Source of the DNA: Tilletia caries
Taxonomy: Eukaryota > Basidiomycota > Exobasidiomycetes > Tilletiales > Tilletiaceae
Reading direction: 5' to 3'
NCBI GenBank assembly: GCA_032718865.1
Contig: JALUTQ010000046.1
Coordinates: 1,674,001 to 1,738,000 of the forward strand
DNA length: 64,000 nt
Positions 13,554 to 29,339 of this stretch are shown here, piece after piece; position 1 is the stretch's first letter, and each line of letters opens with the position of its first letter. A model generated the notes under the pieces. It searched no databases and had not been told where the DNA came from. It saw only the letters and a list, made by a program, of their open reading frames with translations. The position numbers and the translations under genes were made by a program.

Positions 13554-16500
13554 ATGACAAAATCGAAGCGTTCTGTACGCACCGAGATGGCACCACAGCA
13601 GGCGAATAGCGTCGGGTCGAGGACAGCATCTGCATCGCAAAGCGATCTCACTCATGCTGATTGGGGCATCCCGACGCTCGACGCGAAGGAGGACTCAAGT
13701 GGGAAGACTGTTTCGGGACCTGCGAATGGTATGTATGCGATTTGAATGCATAGGACTGATTCGACCATTCACTCACATTATGTCCTGTAGCTACATCATA
13801 CACAGCGTCGAAGGGCAGTGGAAAGAACAGCCGTGCTATGGACGAGATTGGACGGGAAGAAACAGCCTCCCGCGGTCGCATGACACCGCATACATCCGAA
13901 AATTCGCCAACCATCCCAAAGCAGAGCTTGAAGATTCAAACCTCAATGCTGAACCAGAACAACAAGATGGACAACAATGCAGTCGCTGGACCCAAGACAG
14001 CATCCCCTTCGACTGCTCCCCTTAGTCTGGCCGGCCCCCGGACTCGCCCACGCGCCAGCACTATCTCAGCAGCTGCTGCCAAAGTCAAGCTGCCGGCAGG
14101 CACCGATAGCGACGAGGACGACACAGACAAAGAAGGTGGACCTGCATCAGCCAGCGGCACGATGTTTGGCCGTCCCAAACTTGCCGACACAGCTCCACGA
14201 ACCGCTCGGTTCGCCTCCTTCTCTGCTATAACGACCACCTCGCAAACCGTTCACGTAACGCAGGCCCGTCCATCGGTGAACACGGTTCCGGCTGTGAAGG
14301 TTCAGATCGGGAGTGCGAGCTCGCATTGGCGCCGTGCTTCAAGCGGTAGCCCCGCTTCGAATGCTTCCTCGACCACATCTTCTGCGGCTGAGGTCTCGCC
14401 TCCCACGCTGACGACGGCGAACCGGTTCGCTATACTCGATGAAGAGGCCATTGAAGGCACGGCAAACAACTCTTCGGTTAATGCGGGGCAAGACACACCG
14501 GTTGAAGAGTCGATAATGGTCGGTGATGCTTTCACGTTTAGTACGGGACAGGTCCAGGTGACAAGTCCGAAGCGGCCTAAGTCGAACACGATTACCGGCC
14601 TTGCTCCGCAACTTTGGAGAGCTCAGCGTGCGGCTATGGAAGCGGCAGAAGGCGGGACCGGCTCCGTCTCTCTCCTTTCCGGAACGAATGCTTCTGCTTC
14701 GGATGGGAAGCATTCAAACGTGGTCAAGTCGGGAACCGAACTCGCTTCCGATCAGTCCTATGCTTCCTACTCATCGACGGACACAGTTTTTGCGCCTGCG
14801 GCGCCTCCGTTGGGCTCAGTCTTACGCTCGAGTCGACTTCGGGAGACGATATCGAGGCGCATGACGGTCAGCACTGACATCCGGGCTCGCAATACGGGTG
14901 CAGAGAGGCCTGCTGAGACGCAGAACGGCAACGATTACCCGCTCTATCCGATGGCATTTGATGTGCGAGCCCCAGCAGATCGGCGCGCAAGTGAGGCAGA
15001 TGGCTTTTACGATCGACCTGATGCTCCGTTGACGCCCAGACCGCTCGAAGTCGTCGGTGCTGCGCTCAACCAGGCCCGGGCCAACCCTACCGGTGCAGGA
15101 GAATGCGAACTGTGCGGCATCTTGACTCCGACGCTTACGGTTCTCCTGCCGTGCCAGCACAGTGCATGTGCGGCGTGCTGCTCTTCGGGGATCAACCAGG
15201 TCTCGACGAGCCCGCCGCGGAGCCATGTCTGTGCGGCGTGCCGGGCGCCGGTGGAGAGTATTGCGCTGTGGAAGTCGAGCGCAGAAATGGCTGGTGGTGA
15301 GGCTCGGAGCTTGGACGACCAGGAGACGCTTGCTGGCTCGGTTGAGACGTTGGCTGGCGACGAAGGTGCTTACCTCGACATGTCGTCGTCTGTGGGTCCG
15401 ATCCCGATCCCAAGTGGCCTGGTGGCATCTTCTTCTGCTCACGAGTTCGACCTGGGCGCCACTCCGTCCACGGAGCAGCATATTGCTCGACTTCAGTCTC
15501 CATATGGCGGACCTGTGACGCAGCCTCCGGCTGCGACGGTGTATGGAGCCACGTTCCCTTCGTCTGCCCTGCACCCTTCGACGGATCACATCGGTCATTC
15601 CGTCCATGGTGAGATGAACGAAGGCACGCAAGGTGGGGCTGGGCTGCTTCCTGGCTTTGAACCTCAAAGTGCTTATGATGCTGCCGCTGACGCCTTGTCA
15701 GAACTGTGAGTTTATGTGATGCGCGTGTGGGCTTTGCTGAGAGGAACTTTGTTACTGACGAAGTGTGTTTGGAAACGATATATGTAGCGAGATGAGTCCC
15801 TCGTCGCCGTGAGTGCTTTGAAGTGTTTGTGTCGAGAATGTGACGCATGTCCTGACGACAGCCGGAGTCGTTTCTTTAATGTTCTACAGAGAGTCTGATG
15901 TGTCACAATGCGCCGTTGTACGGATCGACAACGTAAGTTTGACCCTTCGAAGTCAGCGTCTCTGCTCAGCTTCAGCTCACATCTTCACTCTCCACTTTAT
16001 CAGATCCCTTGGACGGTCGGTTGCGACGACGTGATGAAGTGGCTCCCGGATCCTGTCTTTACGCTGGCGTCGAGGGATGTCTGCGCCCAATCTGTGCATA
16101 TTCCGATCGAGTGAGTACTGAATGAGTAGCGTCTGAATGGTCTTGTTCAATGCTGAAACCTGAGGTCCAATCCGATCGTTTCCTTCCAGCTTGCAGAGTG
16201 GGAAGACCAGGTGAGAAGATGTCTCTGTTTTTGCACAGCGAGAGAATCTTGATGCTAATATCACTCGTTTCCTGCTTGAAGTAACGCATGCTTTCTCGTC
16301 TGTCGTGATCGGAAGGCTGCGCAACGCATAGTCCGCGCCAGAACGGTAAGTTCTCAGGATCAAAAAAAAAAAAAACGTTCGCGACATTGCCTTTCTGACA
16401 CGAAGATGCGTTCTCCTGCAGAACACGAAGCTGTGTGGACGTCCTGTCACGCTGATCTTGTCGACTTACAGCGAGTTGCTGGACGAGGTGAGTTTGTAGA

Positions 16501-18395
16501 AAGCACTCTGAAGGCAATGTTGATCTTGGACTCCCTTGCTGACATCTCTCTGGCCAACAGATTTTCACCACTCGCAACCTATCTGCTTCGCTGGAGGATG
16601 ACCGAGCCGTTTACTTCACTGAGCAACAGCTCGAACGGCTCCTGCTGCTGCTCAAGGAAGGTGGAGGTCAGCTGAAGGACGGCTCCAAGCCGATCGAGTT
16701 TGCTTCGAGCCTGATGGCTTTGGTGCCGCAACGTTTGGCGATTGAGCAGAGAGAGATGTTGTTCAATGCTGTTCATGGTGAGAGGCTTGAGCGAAGTGAG
16801 GAGAGCTTTTGATGAGGGATATGCTGACGCTTTTTCATGTCAACTGCCCACGCATTTCAGACATGGTCAACTACTGCTTGGCTGTTTCTGGTGTCATGCC
16901 TAGCGTTCGCCCTGCTCTGGATCGGTTGTTGCGGTCTTGCTCGATGTGTGGAGGTACGTACTGTGGCGTTCCGTGTTCCTTTCCAATGGTCGTTCAATAC
17001 TCACTTTCCACCATCTTTTGTTGTTACAAAGCGTTCGCCCCGGACCAGAAGATGACCGTCATAGAGACTGCTCGAGCGGCGCTGTCGGCCATGATGGTCT
17101 CAGAAAGCATGCAGAAGAAGGGATCACCTCGAGCGCGCAAGTCGTCCAGCTTGACGCTTGCGGTTGTATCCGATGGACAACGACCACCGTACTACGGCGG
17201 CACACATGAGGAAACAGGCTTCCGATCGCGAAATCGTCAGATGCATCCGAGTCCGCGTCCTTTCTGCTCGCCCATTCATGCTTCTGGAATGGTAGCGCCA
17301 GCGCTTTCTCCCATGGCGCACTACAAGACGGTCGATTTCCACAGCGGGCCCTACTACGGTCCGACACCGTACGCTACGCCTCCGTACGCAGCGCATGATG
17401 GGGGGATGCATTCCGCCGGGCACCAGAACGACGGGACCGACAAGATGGCTGAGATGGAGCCAGTGGGCGGATCTGCTATGCGTCTTGCATGTGGTCCTGG
17501 CTACTATGCGGCTGGAGGGATGATGCCGCCGGGACAGCAGAACATGCCGCACATGTTCACTCCGGAGTGCTCGCCGTATGGCGAGATGAAGACGACGTTC
17601 CCTTCGCCGAATGGACGCCACAATCCGGGCATGGATCATGCCACTCAAGGTCCACCTACGCCTATGCGCTCCGAGCACGGTCCGGCTGCGACGATGCATC
17701 CGCCTTCGTACTATGGCGGGATGGTGGGCATGGGCATGGGTCCTTCGGCTATGCCTGGACCTTATGGCGCTTACCCTGGAACGCCAGGTCCTTTGCTCCC
17801 GCCGTATGGCTATCCGGTCGGTATGCCGCCTTCGAGCTCGTCACCGATGCCAATGCAGAACATGGCTCGACCGACTCAGGTCACACTTCTTGGTGGACCG
17901 GGACCGCGGGGACTTGTTGGTGTTGGTGGTGCTTATCCGCCATCGCAGGTTCCGGTGGAGGGATCGACGCCGTACCAGCAGCTTGGGCTCTACCAGGGCG
18001 GTACATTCAATGGTCAGCCTGGGGCGAACGCTGCGAGTGTAGATCCTTCCATGGCGAACCCGCTCCGGCCGGTGGCCCCTGCAGGCCCACCCTCACCCAG
18101 CGTCGACTTCTCGACGGGACAAGCCAACGTGGGGGACGGCACGGCCCAACCGACGCCCGCCTCGCTCCGCAACGACGTATCTGTCTCGCTGCAGAAGCTG
18201 ATGCGCTCGGGAGACGTCAACCTGGCCGAAGGAGGATCAGGAGGATCGAGCGGGGAGGAGGTTCCGAGCTTGGCTACGATTGCGTCTGTGCTGCCGAAGG
18301 TGAAGCAGGACGAGGACGAGTTTGAGAGGCTGGTCGAGGCTGTTGCTCAGGCGATGATGAAGAAGAAGGACGGACGGGAGGGCGAGCGCGAATGA
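13554..18395 (+). CDS. Large protein with a RING-like zinc finger and an RRM-like domain
   Basis: I do not recognise the orthologue. Eleven exons keep one frame: 13554-13728, 13791-15705, 15788-15808, 15890-15932, 16004-16110, 16190-16210, 16282-16345, 16422-16487, 16561-16777, 16861-16953, 17032-18395; 1,361 residues. Residues 1-490 are Ser/Thr/Ala-rich and probably disordered. A C3HC4-type RING-like finger follows (CELCGILTP, LPCQHSACAACC, HVCAACRAP; about 496-550). An RRM-like fold lies near 709-800, with an RNP2-like strand VVRIDNIPW and an RNP1-like strand NACFLVCR. Next is a helical segment (about 805-930). The C-terminal 430 residues are Pro/Gly/Met/Tyr-rich and low-complexity. Two exons are only 21 nt long. 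The domains suggest an RNA-binding ubiquitin ligase or RNA-regulatory factor; this is inference. Confidence 0.75.
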
Positions 18396-19212
18396 AGGCG
18401 GCCTGGAGGCCTTGTACGATACACCATTTTCCCGGATTCCTCTCTCGGCTGGGATCGCTCTCCCTATTATAGGAGCGTCCCCAGACTCAGCTATTTCTCG
18501 ACCTCTCACGACGGACTCGGACAGAAGACCATCTCACGGATCCCCCGGACTTCCAATAAAACTTCCCTCAAGGAGCAACAAGGCCTTCATCTATTCCCCA
18601 CCTGGACTGGATACTTCTCGCAACAACTCACGTCTCTTCTCCCACAAGTTTTTCGATTTCGACTTGTCGACTGGTACGACCCTTCTTGGACTAATGAGCA
18701 AGCAAACAAACATCAAAAAGCACTCGGCTCTCTCTCTCTCTCTTGGATCGAGGCAGGAACTCTCGCGACACTTTCCCAAGACCGGCTGGCGAACGTTCTG
18801 GCTGCTGATAACGTTCGCACAGCCCCTCAAAACCTTCTGGGCTCCCCGAAAGCGCGTCCTTTTACGAGCCCGTGTTGTCACTAGACCTTTCTCGCTCCAT
18901 CCAGGCTCATCCACAGGACAGCCTCAGACGGCAATCAAAATCCGGGAAAAGACATCACCCGCTGGTGATGCGGTGATGGCCGCTCTCCGAATTGTACATA
19001 CAGGATTTGGAAACTGGGTGTGAAAACATTTTGATTTGCGAGCCAGCAAAGTTGACTTTGAGCTTGAGTGAGAATGGTGGTGGTGATACATGATGGTTTG
19101 GCTGCGAGGGAAGAGAGAGCCGGGGTGACAACATTTGTTTCGAGAGAAGGCGTGGGCTACGGTGGAAGAGAGAGCCACAACGTTTGTTTCAAGAGAAGGC
19201 GAAGAGATTCGT
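18396..19212. other. Convergent intergenic region
   Basis: This 817-bp spacer lies between the RING-RRM gene (+) and Gemin2 (-). Frames here are short and unremarkable. It probably holds two 3' UTRs. Confidence 0.5.
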
Positions 19213-20766
19213 TCAGCGCGTTTCGGGAGCCTGAAGTTGGCGGTCTGCTTCTTCGAGCTAAAAGAGGAGGGAGGGGGAGAGGAAATGGTGAATTAGTGGG
19301 GACAGCGAGCGGAGGATGATGGGGTTACTCACGAGGTCGTGCTGGGCCCAGAAGCTGGTGACGAGGGTGATGAGCATCCATGCGGGACCCTCTCTGCGGA
19401 TACGGTTGAGAGGGCATACGCAACGGTCATAGAGCTCATCGTGCTCCTCCGTCCAATAGAAATCTTCCTCCTCCTCCTCCTCCTCCTCCTCCTCCTCCTC
19501 CTTCTCTTCATCTTTGTCAGGATCGCCGCCCCGTCTGTGTTCGCGTTCGACCTGCCTGATGGCCTGCTGCTCGAGATGATAAGCATGGGCAGCCTCGAGG
19601 TCGGACTTGTCCCTGTAGATGGAGAAGCGGTCGATGGTGATGCTGTACATGATGGTACGTGCGACGTTCCTGAGCTCGTCGAGATGGTCGGATATGAGGT
19701 GTCCGTCGAGGACGGTGAGGAGGGAGAATATCCAGCGGGCATGGAGCGGGGTGAGGACGTCCCGCTGGGCGGTGTGTTCGGCGTTGTGGTCCCTGTCCTG
19801 GGCGGCCTGGGAGAAGCGGGCGATGGTGTCTGCGAGGACTCTCAGCATGATCCGGATCTGGGGCTGGCTCAGCCGGAGCAGGATGTCGAAGGTTGGCGTC
19901 CGACCGGAGTCGACGAGGGCGTTGATGTTGAAGTGGGCCGGCTCGTCGGGGATCGCTCCTGACTTGGGAGCCCGGTCAGACCTGATGAGGCCGGGGGGAG
20001 GTGGTTTGTTGTGGATGAAGCGGAACCAGGATTCGCGGTCGCTGTCTTCGGGGAGGGAGAGGGGTTTGAGCGGGTGGGGCGCATCGGCGAGGGAGGTATT
20101 CTGGAGGGTGTGGCGCATGGCCTCGAAGCGTTGGAGTTGGTACTGGCGCCAAATTGGGTCGGGCAGCGAGCCGGATTCTTCCTTCTGCTGCTGTTGTTGC
20201 TGCTGCTGCTGCTGCTGTGCTTGCTTCCGGTTCGAAGCGGAGCGTGAGGAAGAAGGAGCATCATCATCATCGGGCTCTTCGTGCTCGGGCTCTTCCTGGC
20301 CGTACGGGTTGTGGGCGCGAGTGAAGCGTGGTGCGTGCTCGGCTTCGCGTCGGACGAGGAAGAGGTATTCGTCGCCGGAGACGGGTGTGCCGTTGAAGTC
20401 TCTGGGCAGATCAGCGACGGGTAAGCCCTGGTTGGGACGTTGTTCTGCCTCGACGGAGCTGCCCTTGTCCTTCTTTTTGTCGTCGTCATGGTCACCGTCA
20501 TTGCTGCCAACGTCGTTCTCATCTTGATCGATGTGGTCAGCTTCGGGCGGAGGGGGCTGTCGTCGCTGTCTCTTGCGTGGATGGTCCTGTTGTGCTGAGG
20601 AGGATGGGGCGGGGGTCGGCCCTCCGTCTGCGTTCTCGTCGTCGTAGTGTTCGTAGCTGACCATCTTCCTGCGCAGCGGAGGGCCGCCAACAGCAGCAGC
20701 AGTAGCAGCACCAGCAGCACCAGCAGCACCAGCAGCACCAGCAGCACCAGCAGCAACAGACGCCAT
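19213..20766 (-). CDS. GEMIN2: Gemin2/SIP1 homologue (SMN-complex subunit, spliceosomal snRNP assembly)
   Basis: Gemin2 binds Sm proteins and SMN during cytoplasmic assembly of snRNPs. Exons 20766-19333 and 19257-19213 give 492 residues, much longer than the animal protein (about 280). The hallmark LPRDFNGTPVSGDEYLFLVR is at about 119-139, followed by DPIWRQYQLQRFEAMR, the helical core (ESWFRFIHNKPPPPGLI, PQIRIMLRVLADTI) and the C-terminal RREGPAWMLITLVTSFWAQHDL. Extra length comes from a Gly-Ala-Ala repeat at the N-terminus (hexanucleotide repeat 20709-20756), acidic stretches, a run of Gln and a run of about 12 Glu. Splicing a 75-nt terminal intron replaces a read-through tail with LEEADRQLQAPETR. 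A 15-G homopolymer lies 26 bp upstream of the start. Confidence 0.85.
20709..20756. repeat. Hexanucleotide repeat (AGCACC)n coding Gly-Ala-Ala
   Basis: Repeated AGCACCAGC units at the very 5' end of the Gemin2 coding sequence give the GAAGAAGAA run in the protein. Copy-number change alters the length without a frameshift. Confidence 0.85.
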
Positions 20767-21296
20767 CTTCTACTTCAGATTTCAGACCTTTGGGGGGGGG
20801 GGGGGGTTGCATCGACGACAACTTGGGCAAGTTCGAAGGTTGGAAGGTGGCCGCGGTGGCCGGACCATCGCCAATTCTTGAAATCACTTTTGTCCCAAAA
20901 TACGGGAACGCTGCTTACATCAGCACGCATCTGTGTTTATCCGCTCCACCTGCTGAGCCACGTGACCACGTTCGGGCTGTGTACAATGTGTTGCTCTCAT
21001 TCGGACTTCGGAGTGGGGCCCCTGTTTGGATGCCCCGAGCATCAGTCGAGTGGCCGCGCTCAGTCCCCCTTCCGCGTCCATACAGCACACAGCATACACA
21101 CACACAGCTCCCACTCAGGTCCAGCACACCCAGACAACGACGACCCCTCGCGCGCCCACCACGCTTGACCAGGGCGAGCTCCCCCTTGGCTAACACCTCT
21201 TTCCGTCGCGCCTGTGTACAGTCCTCGACGCGTATTGGTGTTGACCACCCGCGCATTCCGCTCTCCTCCACCCCCACCCGTCATCGCACGCAAGCT
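20767..21296. promoter_or_regulatory. Bidirectional promoter region, Gemin2 / myosin II
   Basis: A 530-bp head-to-head spacer. It contains a G15 homopolymer (20792-20806) and a palindromic CACGTG at 20959-20964, a consensus E-box for bHLH factors. I see no gene. Confidence 0.5.
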
Positions 21297-24200
21297 ATGG
21301 CAGACGCATCCAAACGCAGGAGCATCCTGCCCGGAGCAAGCAGCCGCTCCGTACGACCCAGCACCGGCGCGCCAGCATCTCCCAGTGCCGCCGCAGCCGA
21401 CGTCTTCACGGGAGGACGCAAAAAGAAACCGGAAACTTCCGCTGCCGATGCTGCCGCTGCCGCCGAGTTTGCAGAGAAGAAGTGGGTCTGGATACCGGAC
21501 AAGGACGCCGGATACTTGCCCGCATGGGTCATCCGTGAGGAAGACGACGGCGAGACCAGCGTGTGCAACCTCAGCGATGGACAGGTGAGCGCCATTGGCA
21601 TACATTCCAGTCTGTGCTCACATGGCAGAGCTGATGCGCAATCTGCCGCTTTCTACTCCTCTCAGTTGCGCAAAGTTCCTACTTTCGAGCTCAACAAGAT
21701 GAATCCCCCCAAGTTCGAGAAGGTCGAAGACATCGCCGATCTCACCTTCCTCAACGAGGCCAGTGTGGTACACAACCTGCGGCAACGATACAACAGCGGC
21801 CTCATTTATGTGAGTTTCATCAACCCGTGCTGCCTCCACGCCTCATAAGCACCTGACCAATCGCTCTCTCTTCTCTTCAGACTTATTCCGGCCTCTTCCT
21901 CGTCGCAGTCAATCCATACCATGCCCTCCCCATCTACACCGACACCATCGTGGCCGCATACAACGGCAAGCGGAGAGAAGAGAACGCCCCGCATGTCTTT
22001 GCCCTCGCAGACGGCGCCATACGCAGCATGCTCGACGCAAAGGAGAACCAAAGTCTGCTCATCACGTAAGTCGCTCAAGCTCCCCGGTGTTGAGGTAGTC
22101 TCATTCCTCACATTTTACCCTTCTGCTACGTTCGCTACAGGGGCGAGTCCGGCGCGGGTAAGACGGAGAATACCAAAAAGGTCATTCAGTACCTGGCCGC
22201 CATCGCAGCCGATGCCGCACAACCAGCTGCAGCAACAGCGACGGCCGCTTTTACAGCCCACCAACGGGACGCGTCCGCAGCCACCGGTCTCGTTCGCACC
22301 GGCTCATCACGGCAGGTACTTGATCACCTTAATGGCATTGAGGCCATTGGCGCCAAGCGTCTTGGCCTGCTGGAGCGCCAGATTCTGCAGGCAAATCCCA
22401 TCCTGGAGGCCTTTGGTAACGCACAGACCATCAGGAACAATAACTCGAGTCGTTTCGTGAGTATCATGATGAGCGACAAACAAAGAAAAGTCGCGCTGAC
22501 CCATCTACCCTCAAAATCGCGAAGGGTAAATTCGTGCGCATCGAGTTCACCTCCCTTGGCGCTATTGCGGGCGCAAACATCGACTGGTACCTGTTGGAGA
22601 AGAGCAGAGTGACAAATCGGAGTCCAAAGGAGAGAAGTTTCCACATCTTCTACCAGCTCCTGCGCGGTGCCGATGCCGACCTTCGCTCCCGGTTGCTACT
22701 CTCCAACTCGCCCGATGACTACGGCTATCTCCGTGGAACGCGCAAGGACGTCGAGGGCGTGGACGACCATGAGGAGTGGAAGGCCCTCAATGAGGCTTTC
22801 AAGGTCGTAGGCTTCTCAGACGAAGAACGCCTGAACATGCTCCGCATCGTCGCTGCCATTCTCCACATCGGCAACATCCAAGTCGCCGATGACCGTTCCG
22901 AGCAAGCGCGTATCACCAATGCGGCCGCCGTCGAAAAGGTCTGCCACGTCCTCGGCCTTCCCGAGCAGGAGCTCAATAAGGCCTTGCTCCGTCCGCGGGT
23001 CAAAGCCGGACGAGAATGGGTGACCCAGAGCCGGACGAAGAAACAGGTCATCGACGAGATGGCGGCGCTTTGTAAGACGATGTACGAGAAGACGTTTGCG
23101 AGTCTGGTGGAGCGGGTCAATCGGGCGCTGGATCGCCCAACGAGCAAGAGCACGTTTATCGGTGTGCTGGATATTGCCGGTTTCGAGATCTTTGAGGTCA
23201 ACTCGTTCGAGCAATTATGTATCAATTACACCAACGAGAGACTGTGAGTTACCGACCCGAGTAATGCTGGTGTTGCCTTGTCATTGACGAATACTGACGA
23301 CGCGTTTGTCCTTGATCTCTATCCTCCCAGGCAACAATTTTTCAATCACCACATGTTTGTTTTGGAACAGGAGGAATACGCGCGCGAAAGTATCGAGTGG
23401 GACTTTGTCAACTTCGGTCTCGACCTACAACCGACCATCAACCTGATCGAGTCCTCAAACCCGATCGGTATCCTGTCCTGCCTTGACGAGGAGTGTATCA
23501 TGCCGAAGGCGACCGATCTGACGTTCACTGAGAAGCTCAACCGGATCTGGGGCACCAACAAGGACGGAGCGGCGAACGACAGCGTCTCGGCTGCGCTGTC
23601 TCTCGAGGCGGGTGTTGCGCATGGCTCGACCAAGTTCCTGTCTGCGCGCTTCGCCCAGGGCTTCACGGTCAAGCATTACGCTGGTAATGTCGAATACCGG
23701 ACGGAGGGCTGGCTTGACAAGAACAAGGATCCGTTGAATGACAACTTGACTCGCGTCATGTCGGAGTCTACGGACCGCTTTGTTGCTGGTCTCTTTGCGG
23801 AGTATGCGGCGGACGACGAGGCGCCGGTTAGCGGCAATAATGGCGCGGGACCGTCGCCTCCCAAACGACGGATCAAGCGCGGTGCTTTCCGGACGGTGGC
23901 GCAGCGACACAAGGAGCAGCTTTCGTCGCTCATGTCTCAGCTGAGCTCGACACAGCCGCACTTTGTACGCTGCATCGTGCCGAACCCGAACAAGAAGCCG
24001 GGCGTGATGGATGTGCCGCTCGTGTTGGAGCAGCTCCGGTGCAACGGTGTGTTGGAAGGCATCCGAATTGCGCGTCTCGGGTATCCGAACCGGCTTCTCT
24101 TCTCCGAGTTTAGGAACCGGTATGAGGTTCTCACTCCTGGTATCATACCGCAAGGATACATGGACGGACGCAAAGCCAGCCAGCGGATGGTCGAGGCGTT

Positions 24201-26265
24201 GCAGCTCGAGCCGTCGAGCTTCAAGATTGGCACGTCCAAGATCTTCTTCAAGGCGGGCATCCTTGCGCTGTTGGAAGAGCGCCGCGATTCGCATCTGTAC
24301 GACATCTTCTCGCGCTTCCAGGCGGCGTGTCGGATGTTCACCGCTCGTCGGCAGATGAAGAAGATCCTCAATCGGGCCGCGGCGGTTCGGACGATCCAGC
24401 GGAATGCGAGGTTGTACGTCGAGTTGCGGGAGTGGCCGTGGTGGCAGCTCTACACCAAGGTGCGGCCGCTGCTGACTGCGACGCGTCACGACGAGGAGTT
24501 GAAGCGGAAGCAGAACGAGCTTGCGCTGTTGAAAGAACGGGCTGATCGGGATCTCAAGGAGAAGGAGGCTTTGGAGACACTCCGGCACTCGTTGGAGACG
24601 GACAAGAAGAAGGTGGAGACGGAGCTGGAGTCCGAACGGGCGCTCTCGCTCGACAAGGACGTACTTCTTGCCAGGTCGAAGGAGCGCGAGTTGGCCTTGG
24701 AGGAGGAGCTGGCTGCCCTTCAGGCGGATGTGGATCTTTTGGACAGCCAGCTGGAGCGCATGATGGCCCAGCAGAAGGAGTCGGAGACTGGTCGGACGGA
24801 GCTCAAGGCTGCGCTGGACGCGGCACAGGAGCGACTGATGACGCTCCAGAACGCGCAGAACGAATGGTCGGTCCGCGAGTCGAGTCTGACGGCCGACATG
24901 GACAAGCACACCGGCGAGCTGCAGCGTCTGACGAACGAGCGCGGCGCGATTGAGTCCGAACGGAAGATGTTGGAGCGGAAGCTGGTGGAGCGGGAGCAAG
25001 ATTTGGACCGGTTGCAGACGCGCCTGACGGCTTCGCTGACGGAGGCGGAGAGCAAACTTGCTGCGGAAGTCAAGGCGAGGGCGGAGGAGCGTGAACGGCT
25101 GTCGAAGTTGGAGGCGCAGTCTCTGGAGTCTGCGCGGGCGGAAGCGGCGGCGCTGACGACGGCGGAGAAGAGTCAGCGGGTAGCGGAGGAAGAGCTGAGG
25201 CAGCTCCGCGATCTCAATTCGACTTCCGAGCGGTCACTTGCTGAGCTTCAGCGAGCGAAGGAGGCGATCGACAAGCAGCTTCAGCACACGCTCACGAAGC
25301 AGCAAGGACTGGAGGACGCCGTCTTGGAGCTGGAGCGATCGAACACCCACCTGAAGTCTACGGCTGACCAGCTGGCGGTGGAGCTTTCTGCGGAGACGAA
25401 GCGGCGTGAGCTGGCGGAGAGCAAGACGAAGTCGCATATCCAGGCGCACGATATCTTGCAGCAGCACATGACTGTGCGGGACAAGGAGCTTGCGAAGCTG
25501 AGGGAGGAGCTGAAGCAGGCGAATGCGGAGATGAAGCGGTTGCAGTCGATGCAGAGCAAGACGATTGTGGAGCATGTGCATGTGCTCGAGGAGGCCAAGC
25601 GATACACGGATCGGCAACTGGCGGAGGCACAGGCGAAGCTTCAAGAGCTGGCTCAATACACGCGCACGCTCGAGAAGAGCAAAGCCCGGCTGATCTCGGA
25701 CAACGAGGATCTGAATCGGCAGATTGGACAATTGCAGCAGACGAACCATCGTCTGCCGGTCAAGAATGGCGGTGGCGTTGACGAGACGACGGTGAAGCGG
25801 ATGGAGGTGCAGGTGAAGGACTTGACGGCACAGCTGCGCGAGGCGAAGCGGGAGCGGGACGAAGCTCTATCTGCGAGTCGACGAAAGGACCTCCAGCTGG
25901 ACGACACGCTATCCCGAAGCTCGCGCGGGTACGAATCGCGAATCATCGACCTCGAGCGCGAAGTCCGCAACGCACACGCAGCGCGAAGTAACGCCTTCGC
26001 AAACCTCGAGGACCTAGTGGCGTACTCGGACCCGAATCTGGACGACGGCTCGTTCCGACGGCGACTGTTGAATGAGTTGCGGGCGGGGAACGCGGCGATG
26101 GAGGCGGAGTTTGTGGCGAAGCAGGATATGTTGAGGAGTCATAAGGCGAGTAATGCGAATGGGGGGATGGGGATGGGGAGTCCTTCTGCTGCGAGGTATA
26201 TTGGTACGACGCCTAAGGTCGGTGGGGCTACGACGGCGACGGGGGTGCCGGCGAAGTATCGGTGA
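21297..26265 (+). CDS. Conventional (type II) myosin heavy chain
   Basis: The actin motor of the cytokinetic ring. Six exons: 21297-21584, 21666-21809, 21881-22065, 22141-22456, 22525-23243, 23331-26265; 1,528 residues, about the size of fission-yeast Myo2. An N-terminal SH3-like strand ([18 protein letters not shown]) leads into the motor. Motor motifs: P-loop GESGAGKT, switch I region NNNSSRFGKF, switch [22 protein letters not shown], and the SH1/SH2 helix [13 protein letters not shown]. An Ala/Thr-rich insert sits after the P-loop helix (loop 1). One clear IQ-like segment ([15 protein letters not shown]) follows the converter. A coiled coil of about 650 residues, rich in Glu, Lys, Leu and Gln, fills the rest. 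Introns fall only in the head-coding part. It is called MYO1 in budding yeast and myo2 in fission yeast. Confidence 0.96.
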
Positions 26266-26766
26266 ATGGTGATGAACGGTCGGTCCCGCTTTCTTTTGTT
26301 TCCTTTTTCACAAATCCCTCCTTTCCTGGCGAACAGTCTCTGTCTCCCTTCCCTTCCCTCTCCCTCTCCCGGTCTTTCATCACACGTCCCTCGACTTCCT
26401 TCGTAACTTGTTGAAATCTCCCGCGCTCTTCTCTCTCCCCTTGTTTGGTATATCTTCTTCCCCCTATCTCCCTATCGTTCCTTGGGTCCGCCCTTTCTCC
26501 CACCTTTTCCTCTCGCAACGTTTCCCTCCCCTCTCTCTAAGCTCCAAGGCTCTCTTCAAGAAACTGTATGTTCCGCTATCTTCTCGCGAATTCACCCTTC
26601 TCACGAATGGCCTGGGGTTGTGATTTCCCTGATCGTTGACCCAAAGCACCGACGTGTCCTTTTGAGGCGATCCTTCTCGCTGCTGAATTCTGTCAGTGAG
26701 CACGTCCTTCAGGGCCATCCTTCAGCACGACGTTCCCCCACCACTTCAAGACGGCGGCGACAAAAG
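26266..26766. promoter_or_regulatory. Spacer and leader upstream of the Tom20-GART gene
   Basis: This 501-bp pyrimidine-rich spacer contains the myosin 3' UTR and the promoter of the next gene, including the motif at 26641-26663. In-frame codons extend upstream of the chosen start but lack conserved features. Confidence 0.5.
26641..26663 (+). promoter_or_regulatory. 23-nt motif shared with the eL8 promoter
   Basis: CCAAAGCACCGACGTGT followed by CCTTTT lies 104 nt upstream of the Tom20-GART start codon (motif end to ATG). The same sequence with one substitution lies upstream of the eL8 gene at 29106-29128. It is likely a transcription-factor site shared by the two genes; the factor is unknown. 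Confidence 0.5.
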
Positions 26767-28284
26767 ATGAAGACATCAACGGTGGTCACGGCGTCAGCGG
26801 CCACTCTGGTCTCCGTAGGCGTCGCCTCTGCGCTCTACTTCGACTACCGCCGTCGCAACGAGGCCACCTTACGCAAGACGCTCCGCAAACAGCGAAAGGA
26901 GCGAGCAGCCGATCCTACCTCCTCTGCCTCCGTCCCACGCACGTCCGCAGAGAGAGCAGCGGCCCTCGATCGCGCGTATGCGGAGTTCAAGCGCGCTGAG
27001 AGGGAGGAGGAGGACACGCCAAGGGACCTCGCCGCTCTACGCTCTTATTTCGACCGCCACGTCGCGCTGGGCGAGACGCTCAGCGCGGCGGGTCCGGCGG
27101 CACACTACGACGCGGCTGTGGCATTCATGCGCGCTCTTCGCGTTTATGCGGAACCGCTTGAGTTGCTGGAGATCTACAGTAAGGCGTTGGGGAAGGGCGT
27201 GTATGGGATCGTGATGGAGCTTATCGCGAGGGATGTTGTGGAGAATACGGCTGGGCATGCTGGGGCTGCTGTCGTTGCTTCCCTGGGTTCTGATAAGGAG
27301 GATGCTGCTGCCGGTGGAGTATCTGCCGAGTTGAGCAACAAGGACGGCAATGGATCGGCAGCCGGCGCTGGTTCTGGTTCTGCTACCGCGGCGCCCAAGG
27401 TCACGGCTACGAGTGGGGCGGGTGCTGTTACGGAGAAGGCTGTTCAGAAGCCTGAACCGCCCAAGGGACGCAGGTCAACTGTCGGCAAGCGCATCTTGGT
27501 GCTCATCTCAGGCTCAGGTCAGTCTTTTGCATGTTCCGAGGCAGGCCTCCTTTGGAAGCTCCCTGGGAGGCTAAACACGTTCTCATGCTCTTCCCCCCCC
27601 CTTTCTGCTGCAGGATCCAACTTCCAAGCGCTCATCGACGCTACGATTCCATCCCTCCGCACCTCCGGCCAGCCTCACATCCCCAACGCCCAAATTGTTG
27701 GCGTGATCTCGAACCGAAAAGCCGCCTTCGGCCTCGAACGCGCCCGGGTCGCCGACCCGCCCATCCCCGCCGACGTCTTCTCCCTCCAAAGCTTCCGCAA
27801 GGCGCACCCGGGCCAGGGCAGGGACGAGTATGACGAAGAGCTCGCGAGGATGTGCAGCGCTTATACTCCGGACGTCATCGTCCTCGCTGGCTTTATGCAC
27901 ATCGTGTCGCCGAGGTTTTTGAGGGTGCTGGGGCATGCGTCTGCCAGTTTGGGTCCTGGGCTTCCTGAGACGGAGGGTCGGCCGCCGGTACCGATTATCA
28001 ACCTCCATCCTGCGCTTCCAGGCCAATTTGACGGGGCGGGCGCGATTGAGCGTGCGTTTGAGGCGTACAAGGCTGGCACGATTACTCAGACGGGGGTGAT
28101 GGTGCATGAGGTTATTGCGGAGGTCGATCGAGGGGCGCCGGTGCTGGTGGAGAGGATTGAGATGGCTGGGGTGGAGAGGATTGAGGAGCTCGAGGAGAGG
28201 ATTCATACGGTCGAACATCGGCTTATCGTGGAGGGCACTCGGAAAGTGCTTGAGCGGTCATTGGGCACCGAGAGACGGGAGTGA
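26767..28284 (+). CDS. TOM20-ADE8: Fusion of mitochondrial import receptor Tom20 with phosphoribosylglycinamide formyltransferase (GART)
   Basis: One reading frame, exons 26767-27517 and 27614-28284, 473 residues. Residues 1-160 look like complete Tom20: an N-terminal transmembrane segment (TVVTASAATLVSVGVAS), the adjoining YFDYRRRNEATLRKTLRKQR, then the TPR-like receptor domain (ALRSYFDRHVALGETL, FMRALRVYAEPLELLEIYSK). A Gly/Ala/Ser linker of about 90 residues leads to GAR transformylase: KRILVLISGSGSNFQALID, VGVISNRKAAFGLERA, GFMHIVSPRFL, active-site Asn/His in INLHPALPG and Asp in AEVDRGAPVLVE. The 96-nt intron splits the phosphate-binding SGSGSNF loop, so splicing is needed for the enzyme. 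No Met codon lies between the receptor's last helix and the enzyme, so the enzyme has no obvious start of its own. Each half is near its usual length. Confidence 0.88.
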   Translation: MKTSTVVTASAATLVSVGVASALYFDYRRRNEATLRKTLRKQRKERAADPTSSASVPRTSAERAAALDRAYAEFKRAEREEEDTPRDLAALRSYFDRHVALGETLSAAGPAAHYDAAVAFMRALRVYAEPLELLEIYSKALGKGVYGIVMELIARDVVENTAGHAGAAVVASLGSDKEDAAAGGVSAELSNKDGNGSAAGAGSGSATAAPKVTATSGAGAVTEKAVQKPEPPKGRRSTVGKRILVLISGSGQSFACSEAGLLWKLPGRLNTFSCSSPPLSAAGSNFQALIDATIPSLRTSGQPHIPNAQIVGVISNRKAAFGLERARVADPPIPADVFSLQSFRKAHPGQGRDEYDEELARMCSAYTPDVIVLAGFMHIVSPRFLRVLGHASASLGPGLPETEGRPPVPIINLHPALPGQFDGAGAIERAFEAYKAGTITQTGVMVHEVIAEVDRGAPVLVERIEMAGVERIEELEERIHTVEHRLIVEGTRKVLERSLGTERRE

Positions 28285-29339
28285 GGATCGCGGCTGTCGT
28301 CACTTCCCTGGCTTCCGAAACTGCGTCTGTTGCTGCTGCTGGATCTGCCGAGCACATAGACGGAATCAAGGAGTTGTCGCCGTAAACTGCACCAGGAAGA
28401 GCAGGAGGGCCCATCGGCATCCGCAAAGTCACCGCTCAACAGATCCTTGACCTGCATTCATGCTCGGAGGATCCAGTGCCGTGTTATGTGGTCCGCAAGA
28501 TCACCGTTGACGACGCCCTACGAACTAGGTAGGCTTCCGACGTCCCCCGTCAGCAAGAAAGGGCAAATCGCTACGACCGGCCTACCTCCCTGCCGCATCG
28601 ATGAGTTCCGCGTTTCTTCGCCGGATCATCGACCCCATGAAGGTAGCTCCCGGTCCAGATCAAGTCCAACGATCACCAGCTCGTAGCCCCGCGCCACGGG
28701 CAGCAGCCAAACGTGAAGGAACCCATGTTTCAAAAGGAGAGGGAAACTGAGGAGTATCTCGCCCTTCCCTGGGGAGGCCTGGATAGCGGAGTAGGCCTCT
28801 CCTGAGGACACGCCGTATCTCTTTAATTGGGATCTCAGCGCTTGGTACATAGGGGTTCCCCTTCTGGGCGGGCTCGATGTCTCTCTCGTCTGTCAGATAA
28901 CCCAGCCTCTGCGCATTCCAATTGAATGCGCCTTTGCTCTGTCAGATGTTCTGTGTGTGAGACGCGTAGATAGGAATTACAACGCGTAAACCTCCTCTCT
29001 CCCACGCCCTTTCCATGAGACTGTGTTTTGCCAACCTCTATCAACACACCGTCTGATCATCTGATGGATGTCCCCGGCGGCCTTCCGTTGCGAATGCGAT
29101 GCGGTCCAAAGCACCGACGTGTTCTTTTAAGCCGAGTCACGTGTGCAAAAGCGTGAGAAACGAGGCCCTCTGCGAAAATTCGTGTGGCGACGCTGTTGTC
29201 ATGCAAGCGACGAAGAAGAACAGGCCACGTGGCAAATCCAACTTTTTGCGGCCAACCTCCTTCTGGCTGCTGCCATCGTCGAAGCTCACCTCGACACCCA
29301 TACCCTCAAGATCAGCCCAACCCCAGCACACACATCAAC
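28285..29339. promoter_or_regulatory. Intergenic region and promoter of eL8
   Basis: This 1.05-kb spacer has no supported gene. Its last 240 bp hold the shared 23-nt motif (29106-29128), a CACGTG at 29138-29143 and a perfect palindrome GCCACGTGGC at 29224-29233, consistent with a dense promoter. Confidence 0.5.
29106..29128 (+). promoter_or_regulatory. 23-nt motif in the eL8 promoter, shared with Tom20-GART
   Basis: CCAAAGCACCGACGTGT followed by TCTTTT, 22 of 23 positions identical to 26641-26663 and in the same orientation. It ends 211 nt upstream of the eL8 start codon. Confidence 0.5.

Follow-up and report, generated by a model that had tools for sequence, protein, structure and literature searches.

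A joined Tom20–GAR transformylase gene in the bunt fungus Tilletia caries

Introduction

Fungal Tom20 proteins (MAS20, PF02064) combine an N-terminal membrane segment, an FDYRRR junction and a TPR receptor domain, and have a long tail of their own, ending RDxPRWS. Their N-terminus lies in the mitochondrial outer membrane, while the remainder is cytosolic. Here we describe a gene in a 64-kb window (the whole stretch of DNA analyzed, from contig JALUTQ010000046.1 of Tilletia caries) that shares the first three features with ordinary receptors, such as the copy on C28 of the same genome and the Tilletia proteins P0026, P0027, P0035, P0052 and P0123, and bears an enzyme in place of the tail. The enzyme is a glycinamide ribonucleotide (GAR) transformylase (PurN/ADE8/GART domain, PF00551). 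Like other members of its family it has a complete domain with an Asn/His/Asp set and the near-invariant columns of the family; it differs from them in having no start codon of its own and in being carried on a membrane receptor.

The closest described parallel in location comes from mammals, where purine enzymes co-localize with mitochondria and purines made by the purinosome preferentially incorporate mitochondrial substrates, according to the accessible part of PMC9035706. The fusion would likewise bring a purine enzyme to mitochondria, which supply formate, as judged from its anchor only. Whereas the mammalian purinosome, as presented there, is an assembly of separate enzymes, the fusion is a covalent anchor for only one step. 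The closest parallels in architecture are longer GART proteins with a DUF7904/gelsolin-like part (on C28 and in P0006 and Malassezia P0010 and P0021), in which the partner is not a mitochondrial receptor.

A single frame joins Tom20 to GAR transformylase

The gene occupies 26767-28284 on the forward strand, from an ATG at 26767 to a TGA that closes at 28284, and encodes one 473-aa protein in two exons separated by a single intron of 96 bp. Exon 1 (26767..27517; residues 1-250 and the first base of codon 251) holds the Tom20 domain, a linker, the first strand of GART and one half of its P-loop, and the exon's 250 residues recur in the database protein P0122; exon 2 (27614..28284) holds the remainder of the transformylase and the stop codon. 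A preliminary description of this DNA had proposed one frame with Tom20, an Ala/Gly/Ser linker and a complete GART with its Asn/His/Asp set, and this is borne out by matches to both PF02064 and PF00551.

The Tom20-family profile matches exon 1 with 89.2 bits (cut-off 27) over profile positions 2-132 of 132, spanning residues 12-151, and the solved Chaetomium thermophilum Tom20 aligns with residues 5-168. A transmembrane segment is predicted at residues 5-23 (26779..26835), where 19-residue hydropathy peaks at 1.72 (at residue 5), and is followed by the aligned motif FDYRRRN (residues 25-31), of which FDYRRR is unchanged in all seven aligned Tom20 rows. The N-terminal membrane anchor with a basic flank that typifies Tom20 is thus present as a predicted segment. 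Alignments place the TPR/presequence-receptor domain at about residues 86-160 (27022..27246), and an AlphaFold2 model of it matches solved Tom20 chains, predicting the Tom20 receptor fold.

DNA and protein comparisons delimit a low-complexity Ala/Gly/Ser linker at 27247..27432, within which Tom20-like DNA stops near 27271, weak protein similarity persists to about residue 195 and GART-like DNA begins near 27400. The openness of the non-homologous stretch is weak evidence when taken alone, since 25% of composition-matched random sequences are also open.

The transformylase domain extends from residue 242 to about 465 (27490..28257) by alignment to human GART, residues 2-179 of which align with residues 242-457 of the fusion. 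PF00551 (Formyl_trans_N) matches with 112.7 bits (cut-off 26.1) when the open frame 26482-28284 is scored with its intron unspliced. Asn380 (28000-28002), His382 (28006-28008) and Asp422 (28126-28128) coincide in the alignment with the Asn/His/Asp set of GART, which we take to be catalytic. Conservation was scored on 130 rows: the fusion, the C28 copy, three from T. horrida and 125 further ones. Of 212 candidate proteins, 84 had been excluded for want of the P-loop pattern. All 40 columns conserved in at least 98% of rows are kept by both the fusion and the C28 copy; at 95% (n=50) the fusion departs at 2 and the C28 copy at 3, and at 80% (n=89) at 5 and 7, respectively. By sequence, then, the domain is complete, with its P-loop and Asn/His/Asp set. 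The joined frame is beyond chance, because both family matches are highly significant and the frame has stayed open at a dS of about 0.6-0.7 from the second copies.

The intron (27518..27613, GTCAGT...CTGCAG) lies in the P-loop, as previously proposed. Of the six GT-AG combinations (introns of at least 40 bp) listed as preserving the open frame, this one alone rebuilds ISGSG/SNFQAL; its position is identical to that of an 84-bp intron in the C28 GART copy. Methionines occur at residues 1, 121, 150, 330, 345, 413 and 434, so that, again as first described, there is none in frame between the last receptor helix and the enzyme (residues 150 to 330), which leaves the GART part without an AUG of its own.

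An in-frame ATG shortly 5' of GART on C28 (L008:4649-4651) reads ACG in the fused copy (27403-27405). The fusion intron, being a multiple of three long and stopless in frame, also lets unspliced RNA read through, and the same properties hold for the P-loop intron of the C28 copy (L001:1421-1504); if either were retained, the protein would be full-length but its P-loop broken. This might be chance, as 57% and 48% of composition-matched random sequences are stopless, before the factor of one third for length.

Purifying selection on both parts

Pairwise NG86 comparison of the fusion with the C28 copies gave dN 0.225 and dS 0.719 for the Tom20 part (193 codons) and dN 0.126 and dS 0.586 for the GART part (243 codons); bootstrapped on trimmed parts, dN/dS was 0.257 and 0.199, respectively, and it was 0.193 for residues 86-160. 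A freely drifting copy compared with a constrained one is expected to show at least about 0.5, assuming equal branches, an assumption supported by protein trees in which the fusion GART branch does not exceed the C28 one in length. In a neutral simulation with substitutions only, the frame remained open in none of 2000 copies at a divergence of 0.35 and in 1.6% at 0.15; together with the dN/dS of both parts, this rules out an open frame kept by chance without constraint. As both ratios lie below the value for free drift and the conserved GART columns are intact, the sequence comparison indicates that the fused copy is not decayed and is under purifying selection in both parts.

Second copies in the genome

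Exon-by-exon searches of the genome (38,104,258 bases in 40 contigs; best candidates only scored) recovered two MAS20 matches, the fusion and C28:668267-668713, and two GARTs, the fusion and C28:502840-503439. The C28 Tom20 is an ordinary receptor frame of 526 aa with a long tail, adjoins NDUFS2 and is nearly the same as T. controversa P0026; by eye, the residues of the C28 GART are the same as those of T. caries/T. laevis P0003-P0005. The genome itself falls in the T. caries/laevis/controversa group. Two further PF00551 matches were rejected as GARTs, both being partial and below the curated NCBIfam cut-off: one on C5, with an ACT domain upstream, is best matched by formyltetrahydrofolate deformylase, and one on C22 by methionyl-tRNA formyltransferase.

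The C28 GART sits inside a 1548-codon open frame and is followed by a weak DUF7904 match (23.3 bits, cut-off 30). After the GART of Malassezia P0021 there is a gelsolin repeat (26.2 against a cut-off of 21), and in Malassezia P0010 and P0006 gelsolin or DUF7904 matches fall below cut-off; in T. horrida P0002, P0019 and P0025 GART ends the predicted protein, and no gelsolin/DUF7904-type domain was found. These matches in Tilletia and Malassezia place GART inside a longer protein in several members of the subphylum, an arrangement of which the literature search showed no description among the papers listed. The preliminary description had held that stand-alone second copies of both genes would mark this copy as decayed. 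Second copies do exist on C28, but the fused copy shows no decay, and it is doubtful that the second GART stands alone, since it lies inside the longer frame.

The long C28 frame spans L008:1913-6559 (C28:499912-504558). T. horrida has short GART proteins of 274-277 aa (P0015, P0017) beside the long P0002, apparently through a separate duplication; no third GART resembling P0015 was found in the T. caries genome search, the one match beyond the two GARTs having an E-value of 0.855.

Database and literature support

P0122 (250 aa) is identical to exon 1, comes from other contigs and ends at the splice donor. It represents a cluster of nine sequences on three contigs (the longest 20,453 bases), of which the representative alone was examined; it is evidence for the junction and the donor site but not for exon 2. 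Isolates of T. caries, T. controversa and T. laevis were annotated with RNA-seq-guided tools according to the accessible part of PMC9172201, from which P0122 would derive. The assemblers named there, Velvet and Canu, allow the conjecture, which we have considered, that short-read contigs broke off at short exact matches common to both GART copies, truncating P0122 at the intron. A literature search, with subscription journals mostly outside its coverage, showed no description of a Tom20-GART fusion among the titles and abstract openings listed, in keeping with the initial statement that no such case was known; as far as these searches show, the domain combination is new.

A proposed mechanism and its alternatives

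Taken together, these observations show a real, intact and probably functional Tom20-GART fusion in one smut clade. We lean, with some reserve, towards the explanation that the joining yielded a single-protein, outer-membrane-anchored, lineage-specific GART. Thus, in the lineage of T. caries, T. laevis and T. controversa, a Tom20 copy would have been joined to a duplicate of the GART domain that the longer resident gene encodes, with the GART piece displacing the receptor tail and acquiring the Tom20 start codon and presumably its promoter too. The gene would be expressed, presumably from one transcript, as a single protein, whose Tom20 segment would act as the anchor in the mitochondrial outer membrane, with the TPR domain and linker on the cytosolic side. 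Given the N-anchored topology of Tom20, the C-terminal GART would also face the cytosol, where it may formylate GAR at the mitochondrial surface, near the exit of mitochondrial formate. A GART tethered in this way, with the location, activity and benefit presumed for it, would fit the logic of the purinosome.

Several observations weigh against this explanation. The second Tom20 and second GART make the fusion potentially dispensable. Constraint holds for both parts but is not established for the anchor segment by itself: residues 1-43 give a dN/dS of 0.436 (interval 0.188-0.999), and 721 of 2000 replicates reach 0.5. All five other Tilletia Tom20s aligned carry a long C-terminal tail that ends in SPSGGNRDxPRWS or a close variant, and the fusion has no such tail. 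Four other Tilletia Tom20s, two of which are identical over the region compared, agree with one another at 92 columns; the fusion departs from them at 16 of these and the C28 type at 11. P0122 ends at the splice donor without visible reason. The first two protein searches, which scored the 7996 candidates sharing most words, returned no protein with both halves among the best 120 of 210 matches (lengths about 260-828) or the four of four in the second. Among the best 120 of 1494 matches to exon 2 (lengths about 122-388), none carried both halves and none exceeded 57% where most of the query was covered, with a few Kwoniella rows at 62-66% over 41% of it.

The internal Met121 and Met150, together with the wide interval for residues 1-43, accommodate a mainly soluble GART made from these starts or from a shorter transcript, the anchored full-length form being minor or a second isoform with dual location. 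This appears unlikely, as residues 2-120, absent from such a product, are constrained (dN/dS 0.269, 95% 0.156-0.437). We regard as quite unlikely a spare copy that was formerly constrained and is now unexpressed or at the onset of decay: both genes have second copies, the NDUFS2 copy adjoining the fusion is dead and the database matches listed include no full-length protein, but the fused frame shows neither stop nor frameshift at a dS of 0.6-0.7, omega is below 0.5 in both parts, the GART branch is not lengthened and the near-invariant residues are intact. An unrecognized splice site could hide in the linker, and a retained intron would read through with a broken P-loop; even so, the absence of a GART AUG between residues 150 and 330 and the coding status of the linker in P0122 render very improbable two products of one open frame, namely a GART of its own and a Tom20-only form cut short in the linker, whether by polyadenylation or by an intron that escaped notice. 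The fusion locus and the C28 loci share short exact stretches of 16-28 bp, which might have led an assembler to join two loci, but the fusion differs from both by 24-27% and so is not their chimera, and the same exon-1 junction stands in P0122 on other contigs, leaving an assembly artefact exceedingly improbable.

Returning to the anchored fusion, the preliminary interpretation of this locus stands as regards one intact frame with complete domains, purifying selection on both parts and the recurrence of exon 1 in P0122, but the "hard-wiring" of purine synthesis to mitochondria was overstated because another GART untied to Tom20 exists. A further extension, possible though doubtful, is that bunt fungi have a natural, selected tether holding one step of purine synthesis permanently on the mitochondrial outer membrane, with an import receptor as the anchor, possibly seeding an assembly of purine enzymes that uses mitochondrial formate, beside a second GART in a gelsolin-like protein. 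There are reports that mammalian purine enzymes gather near mitochondria, and some authors regard this assembly as an artefact (PMC9035706 and PMC6066232, in their accessible parts). A selected covalent anchor, if true, would be independent evidence that a mitochondrial location pays, with the untied GART of the same genome as a built-in comparison, and it would show that an import receptor came to serve an enzyme as its membrane anchor.

Origin of the fused copy and its neighborhood

DNA similarity to the C28 Tom20 covers 26764-27271 (73%) and similarity to the C28 GART covers 27401-28257 (76%). The same intron position and the same flank upstream of GART (EKAVQKPxPPKGRRSTVGKR) relate the two GARTs, and the C28 copy is likely the source of the fused one. 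In the Tom20 tree (eight rows, six different) the fusion and the C28/T. controversa type form a pair separate from T. indica/T. walkeri, with support 95/91. Given the two clades T. indica/T. walkeri and T. controversa/T. caries/T. laevis (accessible part of PMC7184893), the Tom20 duplication probably postdates their split. In the GART tree (14 rows, no T. indica sequence) the fusion pairs with C28, apart from T. horrida, with support 88/95, below the tool's mark. The trees place the duplications within the genus Tilletia.

Downstream of the fusion lies a decayed fragment of NDUFS2 (complex I 49-kDa) at 28356..28701 on the forward strand (68% identity, 42 gap positions in 366, E 5e-21). It is frame-shifted; the intact C28 gene matches PF00346 (269 bits). 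On C28 NDUFS2 precedes Tom20 on one strand; at the fusion the order is reversed with both still on one strand, an arrangement that a tandem copy might leave, and the fragment is probably a relic of an NDUFS2-Tom20 duplication. Segmental duplication of the whole region was rejected on the upstream side, where window positions 14000-26260 match the genome via a dispersed repeat only.

This repeat, of about 70 bp, lies at 20688-20764 and has at least 40 matches elsewhere in the genome. A possible further NDUFS2 scrap, inverted and weak, is seen at 28749..28823 on the reverse strand (tblastn E 0.064). Besides the broken piece in the window, NDUFS2 occurs in two copies, C28:669661-670212 and C5:113510-114061, which are 99% identical over 184 residues.
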